Below, piece after piece: positions 13,830 through 45,280 of a stretch of 64,000 bases of DNA. The position numbers were made by a program, and so were the translations under genes. Each line of letters opens with the position of its first letter. The first letter of the stretch is position 1. The notes under the pieces are model-generated. The model did no database searches and was not told the origin of the DNA. It saw only the letters and a list, made by a program, of their open reading frames with translations. The DNA is from Halorhabdus rudnickae (GTDB lineage: Archaea > Halobacteriota > Halobacteria > Halobacteriales > Haloarculaceae), in the NCBI RefSeq assembly GCF_900880625.1, contig NZ_CAAHFB010000005.1:62001-126000 (forward strand), in the 5' to 3' direction.

Positions 13830-14708
13830 ATGCCAGTCGAGAACGGCTTCGTCCCGACGCCGGCGCCGGTGGCTGACTACGCGGCCTCAGTAGCCTTCGG
13901 TGCTGAGCGGCCGAGCGAGGTTGAAGGTGGCGGGCGCCTGCTACTCCCAGGACTGGGACAGGGAAACCTCTACGACGCCGTCCGCCGGTATTGTACGGAG
14001 GGGGAGAACTGGAAGAACCCGGAATTCGACTACCCCGTCCCCGAGTGCGTCGGGGTCGAATCCGATCCCGAACGGCTGGCAGAATTCCGAGAGCGGCATA
14101 CAGATGCGGAGATCACCCTCGTAGAGAGTGACTTCCTCCTGGACCCGCCGGAAGGTCGCTTCGACTGGGTGCTGGCAAATCCACCATACACGCGCTACAA
14201 GCGGATTCCTGAGCCGAAGCGTGAGGAGTACCGTGATCGGTTCGACCTTGCGAGAGGGCAATTCCCGCTGTATGCCCCGTTCTTCGAGCAAGCGCTTCGG
14301 TTGCTCAAGCCCGGCGGCTGGCTCACGTTCATTCTACCGTTTTCCGCGTTGACGACTGGTGTGACCAAGCCTCTGAGAGAGGTGATCCGGGGGAACTTCG
14401 CCGGCCCGATCATGTACCTCCCGGAGGAAACGTTCGACGTCCAGGTCGAGACGATCCTTCTCGGCCTTCAGAAGAAGCGAGACGACAGCGGCGACTACCT
14501 CTGGCTGGAAGAGCTCTACGGCTACGAAACGCGCCCGATATTGGAACGTCTTGGTGTCGAAGAGGTCGAGGACGCTGCAAACGAGTACTACGAGCGGTTC
14601 AAGAAGAAGCGAACGCTGGTGAACAACCGCGACAATTGGGAGCGCAGCAATCGCGACGAGAGTGCAAACCGGACGATCCGACAAGCTGGCATCCAGGAAT
14701 TCGCTTGA
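13830..14708 (+). CDS. N6-adenine DNA methyltransferase with PIP-box-like tail
   Basis: The 292-residue protein has an SAM-binding region (LLLPGLGQGNLYDAV, residues 37-51; VGVESDP) and the catalytic motif NPPY at 117-120 in the context VLANPPYTRYKRI. This places it among Eco57I/HsdM-like N6-adenine methyltransferases. It is compact and no separate restriction domain is seen. The last eight residues, QAGIQEFA, fit the PCNA-binding pattern Q-x-x-h-x-x-F. No cognate restriction enzyme is next to it, so it is probably an orphan modification enzyme, perhaps protecting element DNA. Confidence 0.85.
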   Translation: MPVENGFVPTPAPVADYAASVAFGAERPSEVEGGGRLLLPGLGQGNLYDAVRRYCTEGENWKNPEFDYPVPECVGVESDPERLAEFRERHTDAEITLVESDFLLDPPEGRFDWVLANPPYTRYKRIPEPKREEYRDRFDLARGQFPLYAPFFEQALRLLKPGGWLTFILPFSALTTGVTKPLREVIRGNFAGPIMYLPEETFDVQVETILLGLQKKRDDSGDYLWLEELYGYETRPILERLGVEEVEDAANEYYERFKKKRTLVNNRDNWERSNRDESANRTIRQAGIQEFA

Positions 14709-14840: not shown

Positions 14841-15725
14841 TCACCGCACATGCATGGCCGATGACGGCGGGTGGGTCCCTCGCTGGTTGGTCGGAACGAC
14901 GATCTGATCGACGAAAACGTGCTCGAACCCGTGTTCTCGGTCGTGCTTCCGGCAGATCACCTCGCTTCCGTCTCCCGACTGACTCAGAGAGAACCACGTC
15001 TCTGTGCCGTCATCGTGCTGGAACACGGCCGTAAGTTCGAACACACCTGAATCCCGCTCTCGACGAACCAGCGGAACTAGCGTCACTGTCTGGCGGTGCT
15101 TATCCCCCACTTCGACGGGGTCGGGGAAGCGAACACGAATCCGGTCGGCCCGGCTGATGTCCGGCAGGACCGGGTTCGATGTCGGCCGGATCTCGTTGAA
15201 CCCGTCACCGTCGACGGCAACCCAGCCAAGCGATTCGAAATGCTCGCGAAGCGCAGCCGGGAACTCCCCGAATGCCGTCAGGACGATCGGGAAGTCCGCG
15301 CCCTTCTCGAACCCCGCGAACTTGAAGCGCTCTTCGGGGAAGCAGATCAGACCGGCTTCAAGCACGTACTCGTGAAACCAGTCAGTACTCGGGTCGGCCT
15401 TTGAGAGTGCAACGACGAGGTCGGCGTCGGACTCGACGGCCTTCTTGAGCCACGGTTCAGGGTCAGCGAACGGATGGTTGAGCCAGACCGTTCCGTACTG
15501 TCCCCAGTCGTGGAGTAGGCCGCCCTCGTTGCGGATATTGGTCTCGGCCAGCGTCGACGTGTCTGAGGCACACGGGTCGAGATCGAACCCACGGACAGCC
15601 TCGGCGATCGGCTGGAAATCCTCGAGGCGGGTAGCGTAATCGTACTGGCCTTCGCGAATACCACTACCGCCCTCGCTGACGTGCTGAGCATCAACGCCGG
15701 TCGGAAGCTGAGTCTGACTCCCCAT
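14841..15725 (-). CDS. Phage-type DNA N6-adenine methyltransferase
   Basis: The 294-residue protein has the signature order of the phage Dam family: FDLDPCASDTSTLAETN near residue 47, then a Trp and VWLNHPFADPEPW at 80-92, then later FAGFEKGADFPIVLTAFG. The catalytic motif is normally NPPY/F; here it is NHPF (83-86), so His replaces one Pro. The C-terminal 110 residues form an added beta domain. It is driven by its own reverse regulon element and diverges from the cytosine methyltransferase operon. Confidence 0.75.
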   Translation of the reverse strand: MGSQTQLPTGVDAQHVSEGGSGIREGQYDYATRLEDFQPIAEAVRGFDLDPCASDTSTLAETNIRNEGGLLHDWGQYGTVWLNHPFADPEPWLKKAVESDADLVVALSKADPSTDWFHEYVLEAGLICFPEERFKFAGFEKGADFPIVLTAFGEFPAALREHFESLGWVAVDGDGFNEIRPTSNPVLPDISRADRIRVRFPDPVEVGDKHRQTVTLVPLVRRERDSGVFELTAVFQHDDGTETWFSLSQSGDGSEVICRKHDREHGFEHVFVDQIVVPTNQRGTHPPSSAMHVR

Positions 15726-24122: not shown

Positions 24123-24941
24123 TCAACCGAAGATCTCGAAAGACCCGCCAATCTCCTCTTCGTCCTTGTTTGGGATATCGATGCTGGAATCGAACCAAGC
24201 TTCGTTGAAAGTCATCTCGACCTCTTCACTGTCCCTACCCTCGAGGAAGATCTTGGTCAGCGATTCGCCAAGGATATGATAAGCTTCGGCGATATCCGTA
24301 CCCGGGCTGTTCAGGACGAGCGGTTCTTCTTTTGTCGCCTCGCAGTCTCGCGGGATAGTACCCATGAGGGGAGCATCGAACGAATCGAACGAGGACATCG
24401 TCTCTTCCACCTCGCTATCACCATCGACCTGCGTGAGGAGGATCCCGAGAATGTCCCCCTCAACACGTTCGGCCATCTCGATGGTTTTCTGGCCGTCTAA
24501 TCGGGCGTACTGCCGAGGCGTAGACAGAACAAGAATTCCATCTGAAAGTCCGAATGGGACCAGAACCTCGTGAGAAAGCCCTGCGCTAGTGTCCAAGAGC
24601 ACGACGTCGAACTCGGACTGGAGTTCTGCTACGATGTTCTGTAGCTTTTCGGGTTCTGCATCCGCGTAGGCCTCGAGATCTTTCTCTCCCGGAAGGAACA
24701 GGCACCCACCAGGACCCTCAACGAGAGCCTCTTTGAGCGACGCTTCACCCGCTAGCAGCGAGTGAATGCTATGCTCGAAGTCCACATCTACCATCTCCCC
24801 CAGATTTGCCATCTGGAGATCGGAATCGACTGCAACGACATCGTGACCGTTCGATGCAAGTGTGGTCGCGACGTTCGCCACGGTCGTCGTCTTCCCTACC
24901 CCGCCCTTTGCCCCGGCGATACTACAAACATAACCTGTCAT
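24123..24941 (-). CDS. MinD/ParA-family ATPase
   Basis: The 272-residue protein starts with MTGYVCSIAGAKGGVGKTTT, the deviant Walker A of MinD/ParA proteins with both lysines. It continues with VDSDLQMANLG (Walker A') and VVLLDTSAGL (Walker B). The C-terminal tail of about 50 residues is acidic. No ParB or MinE-like partner is adjacent, so the cargo is unknown: DNA partition or protein placement. A TATA-like TTTATAA is about 28 nt upstream, with a palindrome between it and the start. Confidence 0.85.
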   Translation of the reverse strand: MTGYVCSIAGAKGGVGKTTTVANVATTLASNGHDVVAVDSDLQMANLGEMVDVDFEHSIHSLLAGEASLKEALVEGPGGCLFLPGEKDLEAYADAEPEKLQNIVAELQSEFDVVLLDTSAGLSHEVLVPFGLSDGILVLSTPRQYARLDGQKTIEMAERVEGDILGILLTQVDGDSEVEETMSSFDSFDAPLMGTIPRDCEATKEEPLVLNSPGTDIAEAYHILGESLTKIFLEGRDSEEVEMTFNEAWFDSSIDIPNKDEEEIGGSFEIFG

Positions 24942-28382: not shown

Positions 28383-29639
28383 TCAGGCGAACTCTTTCAG
28401 CTTCGTCTGGCCTGACAGCGTTTTACCGTCCGTCACTTCGATACACTGCTTTCTGTAGTAGGCTCCCAGGTGAGCAGCGAGGAGCGGCGGCACGGCGTTC
28501 CCCACCAGCCGGTAGCGGTCGCGTTTTAGGCCGGGGAAGCAGAAGTGATCGGGGAAGGTCTGGATACGGGCCACTTCACGGACGGTCAGCCGGCGCACCC
28601 GGTCGTCAACTTCGGATTCACTCTTGACCGGGGGTGTCGCCCCCTGGTAGTGGACCGGAGGCGTCCCGTTCGAGACGGTCATGGTCGGCGCCGGCTCGTC
28701 CGGGTGAAGCCGACGCTCGGTCACTGATGACCCTGAGTGTCCTAGCGGGTATTGCGCGATCTTCTTCCGGTGGTCCTCACTGTGGTCGTGAGCGATATGG
28801 TTCGGCGGCATCCAGACTGCTTCATCATCCATCTCGATCTCTTCCCCGCAGGCGTGGGGTGTCACCCGTCGGTCGCCGTCGAAGCGTGTTCCAGTATGGA
28901 TGTTATCCGTCACGGGCGAGTGCGGGTCCATCGCCGGCGGGAGGTCCTCGAGGGCGTCACGTGCCGTCTCGTAAGGCCGGACTTCCTCGCCGGCATCGAC
29001 GCCAGGATCGTCTGCATACCTCTCTGGCGGCTTCCAGGTAGCTGGTTTGTTCATATCCTCGCGAACAGCCACGATGAAGGCCCGTGACCGATGCTGCGGA
29101 ACGCCGTAGCTGGCTGCATCAAGACAGATCGTTTCGTGTCTATAGCCAAGGTCCTCGAGGCGTTCCGTCACGATGGAATGGAGGTTTCCGTGATCCCGGA
29201 CGAGAGCGTCGACGTTCTCAATAATCGCCACCTGGGGTTCGAGGACGCGAATCCACTCCGGCGTAGCCAAGATGTGCTCGTTCCGGGGATCGTAGGGGTC
29301 TATATCTCCGCCGGCCTGAGAGAGGCCCTGGCAGGGCGGCCCTAGAAAAAGCAGGTGAAGCTCGTCACGCTCTTCCGGACGGTCGAACATCATCTCGCCC
29401 GGTGCCCAATTCCCGTCCCCACCGGCGCTGTGAGGCACTACAGTCGGGTCAACATCAGAGCAGTCGTGGCTCTTAGCTGCGGCCCCCGGAATCTGGACTT
29501 TGACCGAATAGAACGCTGAGGGGGCCACGTCAACGCCTACCTGGACGTCGAACCCTGCCATCTGGAGGCCGTACATATCCCCGCCGGCACCACAATACAG
29601 GGATGCAGCGGTCGGCGGAAGCTGTTCTGGCCGGCTCAT
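28383..29639 (-). CDS. C5-cytosine DNA methyltransferase with PIP-box-like tail
   Basis: The 418-residue protein has the full motif set: SLYCGAGG (I), GPPCQG with Cys103 (IV), IIENV (VI), PQHRSRAF (VIII), a target-recognition region, TVREVARIQTFPDHF (IX) and VGNAVPP (X). It should be active. The protein ends in QTKLKEFA, a likely PCNA-binding motif. Its start overlaps the stop of the upstream gene (ATGA), placing it in the operon of the reverse regulon element at 30379. No restriction partner is visible. Confidence 0.92.
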   Translation of the reverse strand: MSRPEQLPPTAASLYCGAGGDMYGLQMAGFDVQVGVDVAPSAFYSVKVQIPGAAAKSHDCSDVDPTVVPHSAGGDGNWAPGEMMFDRPEERDELHLLFLGPPCQGLSQAGGDIDPYDPRNEHILATPEWIRVLEPQVAIIENVDALVRDHGNLHSIVTERLEDLGYRHETICLDAASYGVPQHRSRAFIVAVREDMNKPATWKPPERYADDPGVDAGEEVRPYETARDALEDLPPAMDPHSPVTDNIHTGTRFDGDRRVTPHACGEEIEMDDEAVWMPPNHIAHDHSEDHRKKIAQYPLGHSGSSVTERRLHPDEPAPTMTVSNGTPPVHYQGATPPVKSESEVDDRVRRLTVREVARIQTFPDHFCFPGLKRDRYRLVGNAVPPLLAAHLGAYYRKQCIEVTDGKTLSGQTKLKEFA

Positions 29640-32032: not shown

Positions 32033-33289
32033 ATGCTGAAGACGACCCGCACCTACGTCGCACGCATCACGAACCACAGTCAAGTTCGTGACGATCTCGA
32101 CCAGTGCGGGTTTGCCGCATCGAAACTGTGGAACGTTGGTCGCTACTATATCCAACAACGGTGGGATGACGATGGCGAAATACCCGACGAAGCCGAACTG
32201 AAATCGGAGTTGAAAGACCACGAACGCTACAGTGACCTGCATTCTCAGTCAAGTCAGCGAGTTCTTGAAGAACTTGCTGAAGCGTTCACGGGCTGGTACA
32301 ACTCCGACGACGGCAACAACCCACCGGGCTACCGGAAACGTGGCAACGACCATCCACGCTCGACCGTGACGTGGAAACAGAAGGGTATCAAACACGACGA
32401 CAAGCACGGCCAACTCCGGCTCTCAAAAGGCTTCAACCTGAAAGAGAATCGGTCTGACTACATCCTCGCGGAGTACGAAACTCGCCCCGACGTAGAAGTC
32501 GAGAACATCCAGCAAGTGCGTGCCGTCTGGAACGGCAACCGCTGGGAACTCCATCTCGTCTGCAAGAAGGAAATTCCCGTCGAGGACGCCCCCGGCGAGA
32601 AGACGGCGGGTATCGACCTCGGCATTAGCAACTACCTCGCTATCGACTACGAGGACGGTCCCTCGGAGTTGTATCCGGGGAATGTGCTGAAAGAGGACAA
32701 GCACTACTTCACCCGCGAGGAGTACCAGACCGAAGGCGAGAACGGCCCAAGTAAGCGTGCGCGGAAGGCTCGTCGGAAACTCTCCCGGCGCAAAGACCAC
32801 TTCCTCCACACGCTCTCGAAACACATCGTTGAGCGGTGTGTCCAGGAAGGCGTGGAGAAGATAGCAGTTGGCGACCTCAGTGAGATTCGAGAGGACGACG
32901 ACGGCGGGTCACGGAACTGGGGAGCGTCGGGGAACAAGAAGTTGCACGGCTGGGAGTTCGACCGCTTCGCCCGTCTACTTGAATACAAGGCCGAGGAATA
33001 CGGCATCCTCGTTGACCGCGTTGACGAGGAGAACACCTCTAAGACGTGTTCGTGTTGCGGGCAGATTCGAGATAGCAACCGTGTGGAGCGTGGTCTGTAC
33101 GTTTGTTCGTCGTGCGAGACGACGATGAACGCAGACGTGAACGGAGCGGTGAACATCCGACGAAAGATAACTCAAACTCCCCCAACCGGGGATATGAGTA
33201 ACGGCTGGTTGGCACAGCCCGGAGTCTACCTGTTCGATCGCGAGAGCGGACGGTTCACACCGAGAGAACAGGGAGACTGCAAACCCTAA
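32033..33289 (+). CDS. tnpB: TnpB RNA-guided nuclease (IS1341 type)
   Basis: The 418-residue protein has the RuvC-like triad: Asp195 in GIDLGISNYLA, Glu284 in VGDLSEI, and Asp368 in NADVNGAVNI. The zinc ribbon is CSCCG with CSSC. All catalytic residues are kept, so it should be active as an RNA-guided DNA nuclease using a guide from the element's right end. TnpB proteins help the element persist by cutting empty sites. Confidence 0.92.
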   Translation: MLKTTRTYVARITNHSQVRDDLDQCGFAASKLWNVGRYYIQQRWDDDGEIPDEAELKSELKDHERYSDLHSQSSQRVLEELAEAFTGWYNSDDGNNPPGYRKRGNDHPRSTVTWKQKGIKHDDKHGQLRLSKGFNLKENRSDYILAEYETRPDVEVENIQQVRAVWNGNRWELHLVCKKEIPVEDAPGEKTAGIDLGISNYLAIDYEDGPSELYPGNVLKEDKHYFTREEYQTEGENGPSKRARKARRKLSRRKDHFLHTLSKHIVERCVQEGVEKIAVGDLSEIREDDDGGSRNWGASGNKKLHGWEFDRFARLLEYKAEEYGILVDRVDEENTSKTCSCCGQIRDSNRVERGLYVCSSCETTMNADVNGAVNIRRKITQTPPTGDMSNGWLAQPGVYLFDRESGRFTPREQGDCKP

Positions 33290-33304: not shown

Positions 33305-33339
33305 GATTCCTCCGCCTTCAGGCGGAGGTGGATGTCAAG
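33305..33339 (+). ncRNA. Right-end hairpin, probable guide (omega/reRNA) scaffold end
   Basis: In TnpB elements the guide RNA covers the 3' part of tnpB and the right end, and the guide segment is the flanking DNA just outside. The hairpin CCTCCGCCTTCAGGCGGAGG fits that scaffold. The guide would then read into the 3' end of the MCM gene from about 33340. Extent is inferred. Confidence 0.5.
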
Positions 33340-35440
33340 TCGTTCTCAGGTGGTCGGTTCGGGGTTCGTAGACATCGCCTTGCTGTTTGAGCTTCTCGAT
33401 TTCCTGCTCGACTTTACTGGGTTCCATCCCGATCTTTTCGGCCTCTTCGACCACTACATCGACGGGAGCACCTTCGTCGAACTTATTTTCGAGCTCGTGG
33501 ATGACTCCCCGGATATTTTGTAGCCGTTCACGCTCTTCTTCCGACAGGCCACGTAGAGCCCCCTCGGCATCGACTTCTCCTGTTTCCGGATCAATGCCGA
33601 GGTGTTCCATCGAAGACCGGAGAAGTCTGATCACCCGTTCGGCGTCTTCTTTTTCCACGGTATCGGACAGTCGCACTCGCGCGCTGGCTTCGGCGAGTTT
33701 CACCAGTGACTCCAGGTTTCGCATCGAAACCGGTACAGGAGCGCCCTCTTGCTTGCCTTGAGACCGCAACTCCACGAAGAAATCCCGGAGGGCTGCTTTG
33801 GCATCTTCCGTCAACGAGGGGAAACAGCTACGTTTGGCATAGGCGACGTAACTTCGGAAGAGATGGGGGTTGATCTCAGGTTCAACTTCGCTCGTGATCT
33901 TTTCGACTTGTTCGTCGGTATATGCCGAGGCATCAGCCTTCTTGGCTTGCGCTTGAACCTCGCCAGCGAGTGAGGCGTCCAGAATATCGCTGGCTACCTC
34001 GGCGTCACCATCAGCATCGGGCTGGTCTGTTTGTATGAACAGTAGATCGAACTGAGAGATGACATCCGGGTCGAGGCCCACCTGTTCACCGATCGGCTCA
34101 TATTCGCCGAAGCGGCCGTGTTTGGGGCGGGCTGACGCCAAAACGGAGGCATCCGCAGGGAGGGCGCGAGTAGCGGTTCCTTTGCTGGCAAGCACCTCTT
34201 GTTCTCGCAGGGCGCTTTCGAGACCGGCTGCCGCATCTGAACTGAGCTCATCGGCCCGTGTGATGGCAGCAAGCCCCCCGTCTGCGAGGACGAGTGCGCC
34301 GGCATCAAGAGCCCAGTTTTTGGACCCGCCCGAACTCCGGTATGCGGCTGTTGTTAGTCCGACTTGCGTGGTATTCGTTCCATCTACGCGGATGCTTTTC
34401 GGGTTCAATCTGGCGGCATACCGCACAACTTCGTCGACGTAGGTTCCGGGATCTGTAACGATTCCAGTGTTGATCGTACCGGGGAGGGTCGTCCCGTCCT
34501 CGAGAGTCTTCTCTACACCGCCGAACATCTGGAGGACCACACCCAGCTTAATTTCATCTGAGATGGGGGCGTGAGGGGCTACACTTTCTGTGAACTGATC
34601 GTAGATGTCGTCAGCTTCCGAGAGATCAAGAATCGCATCTTTGTCGTCCTCCGAAAGGTAGATGAGATCTTCTGGTTCGACGTGTTCATAACTCAATAGT
34701 GAAACGTATTTATCAGAGATGGTCGCGTCGAAGTAGCTGTCTTCGCTGGGATCGACCACCTTGAGGACCCCATTGGCCAGTACGGTATCGCCAGGCTGGA
34801 CGTCCCCAACCGTGTCGTCACTCGCAACCAGGACAATGCTTTCAGGCGACTCCCGAGCATTATCCGTGAAAGCAGCTTCGAGGCGAACCAGTTGACGGTC
34901 TTCCATTTCCGACTGATCCAAGTTTACGCGAAACGGCCCGTCTCTCTCACATCCACGGCATTCGATGGGCTCTGAGATTGAGAAATCTCCTGCCGTAATT
35001 CCTTGTGGTATCCGCGTGAGCGCCCCACACCGCTGACACTCGAATGCGGCTTCTGTTGTGTAGGAAACTACCGAACTGACAGACCGAACAGTCCCCGGAA
35101 CGCTGATGAGTTGCCCCCGGTGTTCGGCCCGTATCTCATCGATAGGCGTCTTTTCTGGAAGGTTTTTCACCCGAACGTGAGCCTGTCCGAGCCTCACGTC
35201 GACTGGGAACTCGAAACACCGTAGCGCTTCTTCGGCGTACTCTTGGAGTTGGTCCGGTTTGGTCCGGAAGTCTTCTGCGAGATCCGGGTCGAACTGGTGG
35301 AGATCTTTCCAGTCAATGACCAGTGACTTCTGGCGATTCGGATATTTTTTGGCAAGTTCACCGACCTCGTTGCGATAGTAATCCCGATAGAACTCATCGA
35401 ACAAGTCGACGAACTCCGTGTTGACATTCCTTGCCGTCAT
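33335..35440 (-). CDS. MCM helicase homologue with degraded ATPase motifs
   Basis: The 701-residue protein is colinear with archaeal MCM throughout. The N-terminal domain keeps the zinc site (Cys135, 138, 161, 164) and VPGTVRSV. The ATPase core is still recognisable (GALVLAD, GRFGEYEPIGEQ) but every key motif is altered: Walker A is TDPGTYVDE (328-337) without the GKS; Walker B is ITRADEL (393-399) in place of VDELDKM; the sensor-1 Asn is Arg (ARPK, 437-440); the arginine finger is Gln463 in ISQFD. A C-terminal winged helix is present. The start is the ATG at 35440, preceded by AGGTGAT. The stop lies in the right end of the TnpB element. Confidence 0.88.
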   Translation of the reverse strand: MTARNVNTEFVDLFDEFYRDYYRNEVGELAKKYPNRQKSLVIDWKDLHQFDPDLAEDFRTKPDQLQEYAEEALRCFEFPVDVRLGQAHVRVKNLPEKTPIDEIRAEHRGQLISVPGTVRSVSSVVSYTTEAAFECQRCGALTRIPQGITAGDFSISEPIECRGCERDGPFRVNLDQSEMEDRQLVRLEAAFTDNARESPESIVLVASDDTVGDVQPGDTVLANGVLKVVDPSEDSYFDATISDKYVSLLSYEHVEPEDLIYLSEDDKDAILDLSEADDIYDQFTESVAPHAPISDEIKLGVVLQMFGGVEKTLEDGTTLPGTINTGIVTDPGTYVDEVVRYAARLNPKSIRVDGTNTTQVGLTTAAYRSSGGSKNWALDAGALVLADGGLAAITRADELSSDAAAGLESALREQEVLASKGTATRALPADASVLASARPKHGRFGEYEPIGEQVGLDPDVISQFDLLFIQTDQPDADGDAEVASDILDASLAGEVQAQAKKADASAYTDEQVEKITSEVEPEINPHLFRSYVAYAKRSCFPSLTEDAKAALRDFFVELRSQGKQEGAPVPVSMRNLESLVKLAEASARVRLSDTVEKEDAERVIRLLRSSMEHLGIDPETGEVDAEGALRGLSEEERERLQNIRGVIHELENKFDEGAPVDVVVEEAEKIGMEPSKVEQEIEKLKQQGDVYEPRTDHLRTT

Positions 35441-35664
35441 ATCTATCACCTATTCTTCCCGGTGTATGAAGGTAGTTAACCGTACCGTTGGCCTGAACTA
35501 CGTTAAAGAGGATTAGGGGAATCCCACCAGAATGTAGCTCCCCTTACGGACGAGATCGAAGACGCCCATGTCCAGTATTGGTCTGCCGACGGTTTCGAGG
35601 CGTTCGTGACCCCGCTGACTTGACGGTAGCTGAAATACTTATTCGAGGGGGGAGAAACAGAGAT

Positions 35665-39802: not shown

Positions 39803-40306
39803 ATGTCACGACCAGGTTCCATTCCACCGAGGGGCGACCCGCTTCGAGACAAGCCAGTCGTCTTCATGAGCATCGACGAGCAATGGGCAGAGGCAATTCT
39901 CGAGGGCGAGAAGCTGTACGAGTATCGTCGCCAGCCACCGTCGATCGATGCCCCGTATCGCGTCGTCGTATACGCCAGCGGCGGTCCCAAGGCCGTCGTG
40001 GGCGGCTTCGAGACCCACCGCGTCCTCGAAGCCTCGATCGACGAGCTCGTCGAACAAACAGTATCACAGACGCCGCACGATCCGGAAGACATCCGGAACT
40101 ACTTCGAGGGTATGGAGACGGGTTCAGCGATCAGCGTGGATAGCTACCTTCCATATGACGACCCCGTCCCGATCACGACGCTACAAGAAGCCGATCCGGA
40201 CCTCACGGCGCCGCAGAACTTCCGGTATCTACGTCCGGACCAAGAGCAAGACCAGGGCGTCCTCGAGAAACTCCCCCACGATCGAGGTGTTCCCTTTGAG
40301 TGGTAG
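39803..40306 (+). CDS. ASCH-domain protein
   Basis: The 167-residue protein has the ASCH layout: VFMSIDEQWAEAILEGEKLYEYRR followed by YRVVVYASGGPKAVVGGFE. ASCH domains belong to the PUA-like fold with EVE and YTH, and bind RNA or modified bases. Its position directly after the GNAT/Mom-like gene fits a role linked to modified nucleic acid. A TATA-like TTTAAAC lies about 35 nt upstream, so it has its own promoter. Confidence 0.72.
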   Translation: MSRPGSIPPRGDPLRDKPVVFMSIDEQWAEAILEGEKLYEYRRQPPSIDAPYRVVVYASGGPKAVVGGFETHRVLEASIDELVEQTVSQTPHDPEDIRNYFEGMETGSAISVDSYLPYDDPVPITTLQEADPDLTAPQNFRYLRPDQEQDQGVLEKLPHDRGVPFEW

Positions 40307-43069: not shown

Positions 43070-45280
43070 ATGAGTTTCAATCTAACTGTCAAGCCCATTA
43101 AGCAGAAGGATGCTGGGCAGCGGATGGCACTTATCGACACCCAACTTGTCCAAAACCACGAGCTCAACGGGGAGTATATCCTCATTCAAGGGCCGAACGG
43201 AACCGCGACCACCGCTCAGGCGTGGTCCGGATATGCGGACGATGAAGGGCAGGGCATTATCCGGATTGACGGAGAAATTCGGAGCGAGCTCGGTATCAAT
43301 ATCGACGACTCTGTCCGGGTGGATGTCGCAGACGTTGAGCCTGCCCAAGCGATCGGGGTGATCATTCCGGAGGACCTCCCGGTCAAGGGGAATTTAGAGC
43401 CCTCGCTGCGAGACGAATTCCAGGATCGTGTCGTCCAGGCTGGACAGAAAATCAGCGTAGTTCTGGGACTTGGACCTCGGCAGGAAAACGAGTCGATTCC
43501 GGTCTCTATTGAAGCGACTCAGCCCACTGATTCTCTCGTCGTTGTTAGGGAGAACACGAAGATCGAGATCAAACAAGGCGACCCGACTGCAAAGGAGACT
43601 GCCAACCAGGAAGGAGAGGCGCTCCCGGACGTTAACTACGAGGATATTGGTGGCCTCAACGATGAGATCACGCAAATCCGGGAGATGATCGAGGTGCCAA
43701 TGCGGCATCCGGAACTCTTCACCAAGCTGGGGGTCGAACCGCCCCGAGGGCTCCTTCTCCACGGCCCGCCTGGGACGGGCAAAACGTTGCTCGCGAAGGC
43801 CGTCGCAAACGAGGTGAACGCTCACTACTACCCCATCTCTGGCCCGGAGATCATGTCCAAGTACTACGGGGAGAGTGAAGAGCGGCTCCGCGAAGTGTTC
43901 GAGAAGGCTCAGCAGCATGAGCCTGCCATCATCTTTATCGACGAAGTGGACTCGATCGCGTCTGACCGGGCGAATGGCGATAGCGATGAATTCGAGAAGC
44001 GGATTGTCTCGCAGATGCTTACCCTCATGGACGGCCTCGAAGGTCGCGGTGACGTCATCGTGATCGGGGCGACGAACCGGCCAGACGCTATTGACGACGC
44101 TTTGCGCCGGGGCGGCCGGTTCGATCGTGAGATCGAGATCGGCGTCCCTGACAAAAACGGTCGGAAGGAGATCCTCCAGGTTCACACCCGAGAAATGCCG
44201 CTGGCAGACAACGTTGATATCGAGGCCTTCGCCGATCGGACCCACGGGTTCGTCGGTGCGGACCTGGCTGAGCTCGTGAAAGAGACAGCCATGAATTCCT
44301 TGAGCCGGGTGCGGCCCGATATCGATCCTGAGACAGACGAAATCGATGCTCAGGTGCTTCAGAATCTCGAAGTCAAGCAAAAAGACTTCGAAGAGGCCCT
44401 CAAAGGAATCGAACCCTCGGGGATGCGGGAGGTGTTCACCGAAGTCCCGGATGTAACGTGGGAAGACATTGGAGGCCTCGAGGGGCAGATTCAACGACTC
44501 CGGGAGATGGTCGAATGGCCGTTAGAGTGTCCCCAGATGTTCGAAGAGCTCTCCACCGATCCGACGAAGGGTGTGCTACTCTACGGACCGCCTGGGACCG
44601 GGAAGACGTTGCTCGCAAAGGCCGTCGCAAACCAAACGCAGAGCAACTTTATCTCGATCAAGGGGCCCGAACTTCACAGCAAGTGGATGGGCGAAAGCGA
44701 AGAGCGCGTCAGGGAGATCTTCGCCAAGGCCCGAGAGAATGCTCCGTCTGTGATCTTTTTCGACGAGATTGACGCGCTCGCTCCGCAACGGGGCGCTTCT
44801 CCACACTCTTCGGAGGTGTCGACGAACATCGTCTCTCAGCTACTCACCGAGATGGACGGTCTCGACCAACTTGAGAACGTGGTCGTGATCGGAGCGACGA
44901 ACCGGCCGGAAGCGATCGATGATGCGCTTCTCCGGCCTGGCCGCTTCGATGAACACGTCCGGGTCGGGCTTCCGGACCACGAGGCTCGAAAGCAAGTTTT
45001 CGAGGCGCACACCCGAGGTATGCCTCTCGGAGATGTCAGCTTCGAGAAGCTGGCTGAAGAGACTGAAGACTACTCGGGAGCCGATATCGAGGCCGTCTGC
45101 CGCGAAGCTGCGATGATCACAGCCAGGGAAACCTTCGGGAAAAAGGACCCATCGTCAATCGAAGAAGTTCCGTCAGGGGTCAAGGTTGAGCAGGCACACT
45201 TCGAGCATGCTATCGACAGCGTCGGCTCGAGTCTCAGGGCCGCTGATGAAGGGTCACCGCTCAGCGGCCAATACGGCTAA
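43070..45280 (+). CDS. Cdc48/VCP-family AAA+ ATPase
   Basis: The 736-residue protein has the N domain (double-psi barrel, residues 1-90, plus 100-190) and two AAA modules. Walker A is GPPGTGKT near 233 and again near 506; Walker B is IIFIDEVDS and VIFFDEIDA. Arginine-finger regions ([19 protein letters not shown]) are kept. It should be an active unfoldase that remodels protein complexes. A TATA-like TATATAAAA at about 43040 puts the ATG at leaderless distance. Carrying its own Cdc48 is unusual for a plasmid. Confidence 0.93.

Follow-up and report, generated by a model that had tools for sequence, protein, structure and literature searches.

A putative non-catalytic MCM subunit of a haloarchaeal plasmid family, with a degenerate ATPase core and host-like ends

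What might a full-length MCM homologue do on a haloarchaeal replicon when the residues that run its ATPase are gone? Archaeal MCM is regarded as a homohexamer, and the question is raised by a gene of Halorhabdus rudnickae that lies in the stretch of 64,000 nucleotides analysed here (the window), on a 295-kb contig within a genome of 3.36 Mb. Judging from its sequence and those of its relatives, we give an even chance to the view that the product of this gene, referred to as pseudo-MCM, is an MCM subunit without catalytic activity and belongs to a plasmid-borne family. Its features are as follows.

33335–35440, minus strand: pseudo-MCM gene, an intact open reading frame of 701 codons from ATG, with five Pfam domains.
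35150–35437, minus strand: N-terminal A-domain, a host-like end (residues 5–100, GTG numbering), 74% identical to the own-host MCM, which ranks first of 18 chromosomal MCMs.
33878–35149, minus strand: plasmid-specific middle, comprising the zinc/OB region and the putatively dead AAA+ core (residues 101–524); residues 326–475 are 41% identical to the host and 64% to the pHsi139 relative.
34949–35038, minus strand: zinc site, all four Cys kept (C138, C141, C164, and C167).
34706–34726, minus strand: family hairpin motif ATISDKY ([AT][TS][IV]xDK[YFI]), in the N-terminal hairpin region.
34430–34456, minus strand: degenerate Walker A, TDPGTYVDE (host GDPGTGKSQ).
34244–34264, minus strand: degenerate Walker B, ITRADEL (host VDELDKM).
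34121–34132, minus strand: degenerate sensor 1, ARPK (host ANPK).
34052–34054, minus strand: arginine finger replaced by Gln (Q463 in ATG numbering, Q466 in GTG numbering; SQFDL, host SRFDL).
33719–33721, minus strand: trans-acting sensor-2 Arg, kept (R577, GTG numbering; SMRNLE).
33338–33877, minus strand: AAA+ lid and winged helix, a host-like end (residues 525–704), 70% identical to the own-host MCM and grouping with its own genus at 100/98.

An earlier note on this DNA had placed the gene, its intact 701-codon frame, and Gln463 correctly, as the ATG at 35440 aligns with the start of the H. rudnickae MCM; GGTGAT lies just upstream of this ATG, and a GTG at 35449, 9 bases further upstream, is also a possible start, giving 704 codons. 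The protein belongs to the MCM family by homology, with MCM_N, MCM_OB, the MCM P-loop domain, MCM_lid, and MCM_WH_arc in order and all above cut-off, and with an archaeal MCM as its best solved homologue, covering residues 17–702. The predicted structure (AlphaFold2; alignment rows drawn from window, whole-genome, and scan loci, annotated plasmid records being left out) matches archaeal MCM structures and has a confident AAA+ core (mean pLDDT 84, pTM 0.78). Overall identity to the own-host MCM is 54%, and there is no large internal deletion relative to it. The five domains and the four Cys bear out the earlier description of a full-length, MCM-colinear protein that keeps its zinc site.

The earlier readings of Walker A, Walker B, sensor 1, and the finger also hold against the host MCM, which has GDPGTGKS, VDELDKM, ANPK, and SRFDL at these places. 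Scored in the order K, S (Walker A), D, E (Walker B), N (sensor 1), R (finger), and R (sensor 2), the pseudo-MCM reads VDTRRQR, so the Walker A Lys/Ser, the Walker B Asp-Glu, the sensor 1 Asn, and the finger of active MCM helicases/ATPases are all replaced. As far as sequence can tell, the protein is without the residues for ATP binding and hydrolysis. The statement that every ATPase motif had been lost is right for these four sites, but it was too broad, in that the trans-acting sensor-2 Arg and the Lys of the pre-sensor-1 (PS1) hairpin remain. The DNA-channel elements are altered as well, the allosteric loop, h2 insert, and PS1 tip being replaced; the allosteric loop is gone in seven of the nine family members described below.

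The chromosomal host MCM (L085; chromosome C1 2,143,500–2,152,500) has all motifs in its spliced sequence. Two inteins interrupt it, one in Walker A after GDPGTGK and one after EALEQQ, and both insertion-site sequences are lost in the pseudo-MCM. We did not adopt escape from MCM intein homing as an explanation, since it could account for some of the divergence at the insertion sites but would leave the finger, sensor 1, and the host-like ends unexplained. Elsewhere on the same chromosome (C1 near 774,327–774,395), a 120-residue open reading frame (L005) that is otherwise unlike MCM has as its last 22 residues the tail of the host MCM (EIEKLKQQGEVYEPRTDHLRTT), and several haloarchaeal plasmid proteins (H36–H38) also match the MCM C-terminus only.

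Full-length relatives were found by tblastn on haloarchaeal plasmids, so that the family comprises nine members, namely the query and eight plasmid copies from five haloarchaeal genera besides its own. In the scoring order given above, their motif states are as follows.

Halorhabdus rudnickae (query): VDTRRQR
Haloarcula sinaiiensis pHsi139 (L042): TSSRQQR
Plasmid-size contig of genome G031 (L031): ESESHQR
Haloarcula taiwanensis pNYT2 (L047) and G177: VDHETQQ
Halorussus pelagicus (L043): KSDDNQR
Halorussus vallis (L044): KSDNNQR
Salinibaculum (L046): KSDNNQR
Halobacterium hubeiense (L045): KTDDNRR

The Walker B Asp-Glu pair is substituted in all nine. Eight have a Gln finger, five have lost the P-loop, and seven still carry the trans-acting sensor-2 Arg. 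This graded series suggests that loss began at the Walker B pair and the finger and reached the P-loop last. By contrast, K, S/T, D, E, N, R, and R are all present in the 38 viral MCMs examined, in 10 further MCMs from plasmids, and in every chromosomal MCM that could be scored; where an intein interrupts a chromosomal gene, a few columns are empty or changed. The family also has a hairpin motif of its own ([AT][TS][IV]xDK[YFI]), present in 7/9 members versus 0/47 other and 0/38 viral MCMs; the exceptions, L047 and G177, lack this motif and keep the allosteric loop. A specific DNA pattern for the Gln finger picked up members in 6 of the 392 genomes screened from the order and in 4 of the 146 from the taxonomic family and had no match in IMG/VR, and the scan of genome contigs returned mainly chromosomal MCM fragments. 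On the H. vallis plasmid, a second, near-identical pseudo-MCM copy (L084 4986–7072) is frameshifted and stands beside a duplicated N-tier-only MCM gene.

The family is, by its phylogeny, a mosaic of a common plasmid ATPase core and ends that are closest to the resident host MCM. With the four motif blocks removed, all nine plasmid cores cluster in a single clade (100/99) that excludes every chromosomal MCM; the query belongs there by this placement, its substituted Walker B pair, and its inferred plasmid location. It pairs with L042, the support being 100/100 for the ATPase domain and at least 100/96 for the N-tier. In trees of the lid and winged helix, by contrast, most copies fall with their own hosts: the query (100/98) and L031 (99/96) group with their own genera, L042 (96/84) with Haloarcula, and L044 (89/85) with Halorussus, while L043 (100/95) and L045 (96/89) each pair with the MCM of their own genome. 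For this region, a clade of the query and L042 is rejected (p 0.0375), as is holding together the six rows with a Gln finger (p ~1e-5), in AU tests whose groupings, here and below, were named after the trees were seen and several of whose p-values (0.02–0.04) are modest. The query is 74–76% identical to its host over residues 1–100 and 70–78% over residues 526–625, versus 29–46% over most of 151–450, while its identity to L042 is 58–72% over residues 301–475. Among 18 chromosomal MCMs, the own host ranks first for the A-domain in six of eight copies and for the lid plus winged helix in six of eight, and none of 20,000 random host assignments, a permutation that treats hosts as exchangeable, reached the observed number of own-host matches. 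The Salinibaculum copy shows no match to its own host, and L047/G177 match theirs in the N-tier only. This mosaic, the plasmid family, and the stepwise catalytic loss go beyond what the earlier note had proposed, and the closeness of both ends to the host's own MCM lends indirect support to its suggestion that the protein might act on host MCM or on MCM loading.

Host-like ends could also be plain ancestry, if each plasmid had copied the MCM of its own host and the cores had then decayed in parallel. This is a question of origin that is compatible with several functions, and such repeated capture has precedent, since mobile elements are documented to have recruited host MCM more than once (PMC6972569, citing Krupovic 2010); most family members also sit on long branches. 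However, when the shorter-branched L031, L043, and L044 were kept alone, without the motif columns, the core clade was still 100/100, and placing L031 with its own genus is rejected (p 0.021). Placement of the L043/L044 cores with their own hosts is rejected as well (p 0.018). The hairpin motif, seen in none of 85 other MCMs, likewise counts against independent origins. We consider repeated capture unlikely for the family, with L047/G177, which keep the allosteric loop and lack the hairpin motif, as the place where it may still apply.

The terminal domains recur near pseudo-MCM genes as separate genes for a single MCM domain (winged helix, lid plus winged helix, or N-tier), at the following places.

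L047, 10170–10703
L083, 4067–4615
L043, 7770–8447
L044, 3310–4284

The Haloarcula copies L047 and G177 have a strongly diverged winged helix; directly downstream of each, a protein of 177–183 residues is encoded with a winged helix 65–72% identical to that of the host, and on pNYT2 a cdc6 gene follows about 1 kb beyond this small gene. In L043, an MCM lid/winged-helix protein is encoded directly upstream of the pseudo-MCM, and in L044 an N-tier-only one lies upstream at a distance of about 4 kb. These companions again point to the terminal domains as the working parts of the pseudo-MCM.

The gene itself is solitary and divergent from a metallo-beta-lactamase-fold gene. We infer that the 295-kb contig is a large plasmid, because it carries a ParA-like gene (window 24123–24941) and three Orc1/Cdc6 genes. 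A TnpB gene (OrfB_IS605 / Cas12f1-like TNB; window 32033–33289) ends 46 bases from the pseudo-MCM stop, and close copies of it (~88%) are carried by many haloarchaeal plasmids. The plasmid segment also holds genes for DNA methyltransferases (C5-cytosine, Eco57I-type, and Dam-type; window 28383–29639, 13830–14708, and 14841–15725) and a full CDC48-type double AAA+ protein (window 43070–45280), and in G031 a gene resembling the second AAA domain of this protein lies directly downstream of the pseudo-MCM (L086 7457–8140). Local synteny between the pseudo-MCM plasmids is almost nil, so that neighbours are of little help; the only small neighbour noticed in common is the window ORF 39803–40306, 40% similar over 124 residues to the gene directly downstream of the Salinibaculum pseudo-MCM (L046 10154–10564).

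Taken together, the host-like ends suggest that the pseudo-MCM works by plugging into the replication machinery of the host. With moderate confidence, we hypothesize a non-motor MCM subunit or adaptor, fitted to its host, whose probable task is to bring host MCM to plasmid origins or assemble it there. In this proposal the ends would engage the partners of host MCM, the lid meeting neighbouring MCM subunits, the winged helix Orc1/Cdc6, and the A-domain other factors, and the protein would sit at the plasmid origin to recruit, assemble, or hold host MCM there. We favour it because of the host-like ends, the host-like companion winged helices, the ParA and Orc1/Cdc6 genes on the contig, and the situation in Sulfolobus, where the MCM winged helix contacts Orc1-1 and an origin factor is bound by the A and B/C domains (PMC12141716). 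Against it, the closest Orc1/Cdc6 gene is about 38 kb away, neither an operon partner nor an origin-like repeat was found beside the gene, and host matching fails in the Salinibaculum copy and extends to the N-tier only in L047/G177; moreover, recombination alone, with no selection for a fit to partners, could have produced the host-like ends.

A more specific version, which we put forward only tentatively, is a hetero-MCM ring. Here the dead subunit, re-fitted to each host by swapping its ends with those of the host MCM gene, would join host MCM in one ring and act at the plasmid origin as a gate or platform that does not hydrolyse ATP. In MCM, the finger and sensor 2 work in trans, on the site of the adjacent subunit (PMC4619765). 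The adaptor proposal itself already implies that, in a mixed ring, each copy without P-loop and finger would silence its own ATP site and the neighbour's site that it completes, and would thereby form a fixed gate or platform in place of a motor element.

The main rival to the adaptor is poisoning of host MCM, in which a dead subunit enters or caps the MCM rings of the host, of rival plasmids, or of viruses, slowing chromosome replication or excluding competitors. The sequence signs of a dead subunit fitted to its host speak for such a dominant-negative inhibitor too, and haloviruses and other plasmids encode MCMs that are possible targets. However, host MCM is very likely essential (PMC3972481), so a constant poison would burden the plasmid's own host, a linked control gene or antidote is not evident, and the neighbours examined are not obvious defence genes. 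We regard this reading as unlikely.

It is rather doubtful, too, that the protein has been repurposed as a stand-alone, homo-oligomeric, non-motor DNA-binding or scaffold protein, for example in segregation or origin binding, that no longer meets host MCM. The replaced allosteric loop, h2 insert, and PS1 tip, unlike an MCM DNA channel, and the conservation of the core between plasmids would fit such a role, but it predicts neither that the A-domain and lid/winged helix track the own-host MCM nor that the trans-acting sensor-2 Arg is kept in 7/9 copies.

The degenerate core is constrained by purifying selection, as read from codon-position contrasts and from one close pair of members other than the query (L047/G177). 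Between the query and L042, dS is saturated (core third-position identity 0.36), yet 64% of core residues are identical, with a peak of 72% in sliding windows. Changes are strongly in excess at third codon positions. For L047 versus G177 (NG86), dN is 0.026 and dS 0.244 over the whole gene (dN/dS ~0.1), and dN is 0.006 and dS 0.168 over residues 320–480 of the dead core (dN/dS ~0.04); the contrast in constraint between core and rest in this pair alone is not significant (Fisher p 0.10). A pseudogene or assembly error, for which the motif loss and the frameshifted H. vallis duplicate might speak, is very improbable, given intact frames in nine copies, the third-position excess, a confident predicted fold, and close-pair dN/dS far below the value near 1 that it needs. 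With its frame intact, its motifs absent, and purifying selection acting, the gene does appear to be maintained as a non-ATPase MCM, as the earlier note had held; that note had named a motif-intact nearest relative and relaxed selection as what would overturn it, and the nearest relative, the pHsi139 copy (55% identity), is itself without the motifs, and relaxed selection was not seen.

Among known systems, the pseudo-MCM is a variant of the mobile-element MCMs and stands outside the active MCM helicases. Like haloarchaeal core MCM, such as that of its host or of Haloferax volcanii, it has colinear domains, zinc site, lid, sensor-2 Arg, and winged helix, with ends ~70–74% identical to its own host's, but all cis motifs and the finger are lost and the three channel elements replaced. 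Members of the haloarchaeal core group are 68–95% identical and have all motifs (PMC3972481), so a protein at 54% without motifs falls outside a group defined by at least 68% identity and intact motifs. In the survey of Cherian et al. (2014), nine full-length outlier MCMs keep the Walker A Lys, Walker B, and SRF, and four others are N-terminal only, without motifs (PMC3972481). These outliers resemble the pseudo-MCM as extra paralogues, several similar in length and some plasmid-borne, whereas a full-length motif-less form is not described in PMC3972481. The MCM2 of Methanopyrus kandleri, whose structure is cited in PMC2933578 and PMC3972481, is an archaeal paralogue without Walker A and catalytically inactive; compared by description, it has natural internal deletions (PMC2933578), whereas the pseudo-MCM has lost Walker A without a large internal deletion, and its family, carried on plasmids and matched to hosts, has kept the full length, the zinc site, and the winged helix. 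Eukaryotic MCMBP, which is MCM-like, lacks Walker A, binds MCM subunits, and promotes ring assembly (PMC9018068), may be a functional analogue, although it comes from eukaryotes and resembles MCM in part only. The MCMs that plasmids and viruses have recruited from hosts are likewise mobile-element genes related to host MCM (PMC6972569, citing Krupovic 2010), but they are presented as replicative helicases, unlike a putatively dead core of shared plasmid origin with host-matching ends. We found no description of the pseudo-MCM family in the open-access literature searched.

The family suggests that large archaeal plasmids may capture host replication without a motor of their own. It offers a natural, testable case of subunit specialisation, combining stepwise catalytic loss, selection, and host-tracking at likely contact domains, and it bears on the origin of the heterohexameric Mcm2-7 with its specialised ATP sites. 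A hetero-MCM ring, if true, would be a naturally occurring counterpart to the specialised subunits of eukaryotic Mcm2-7.
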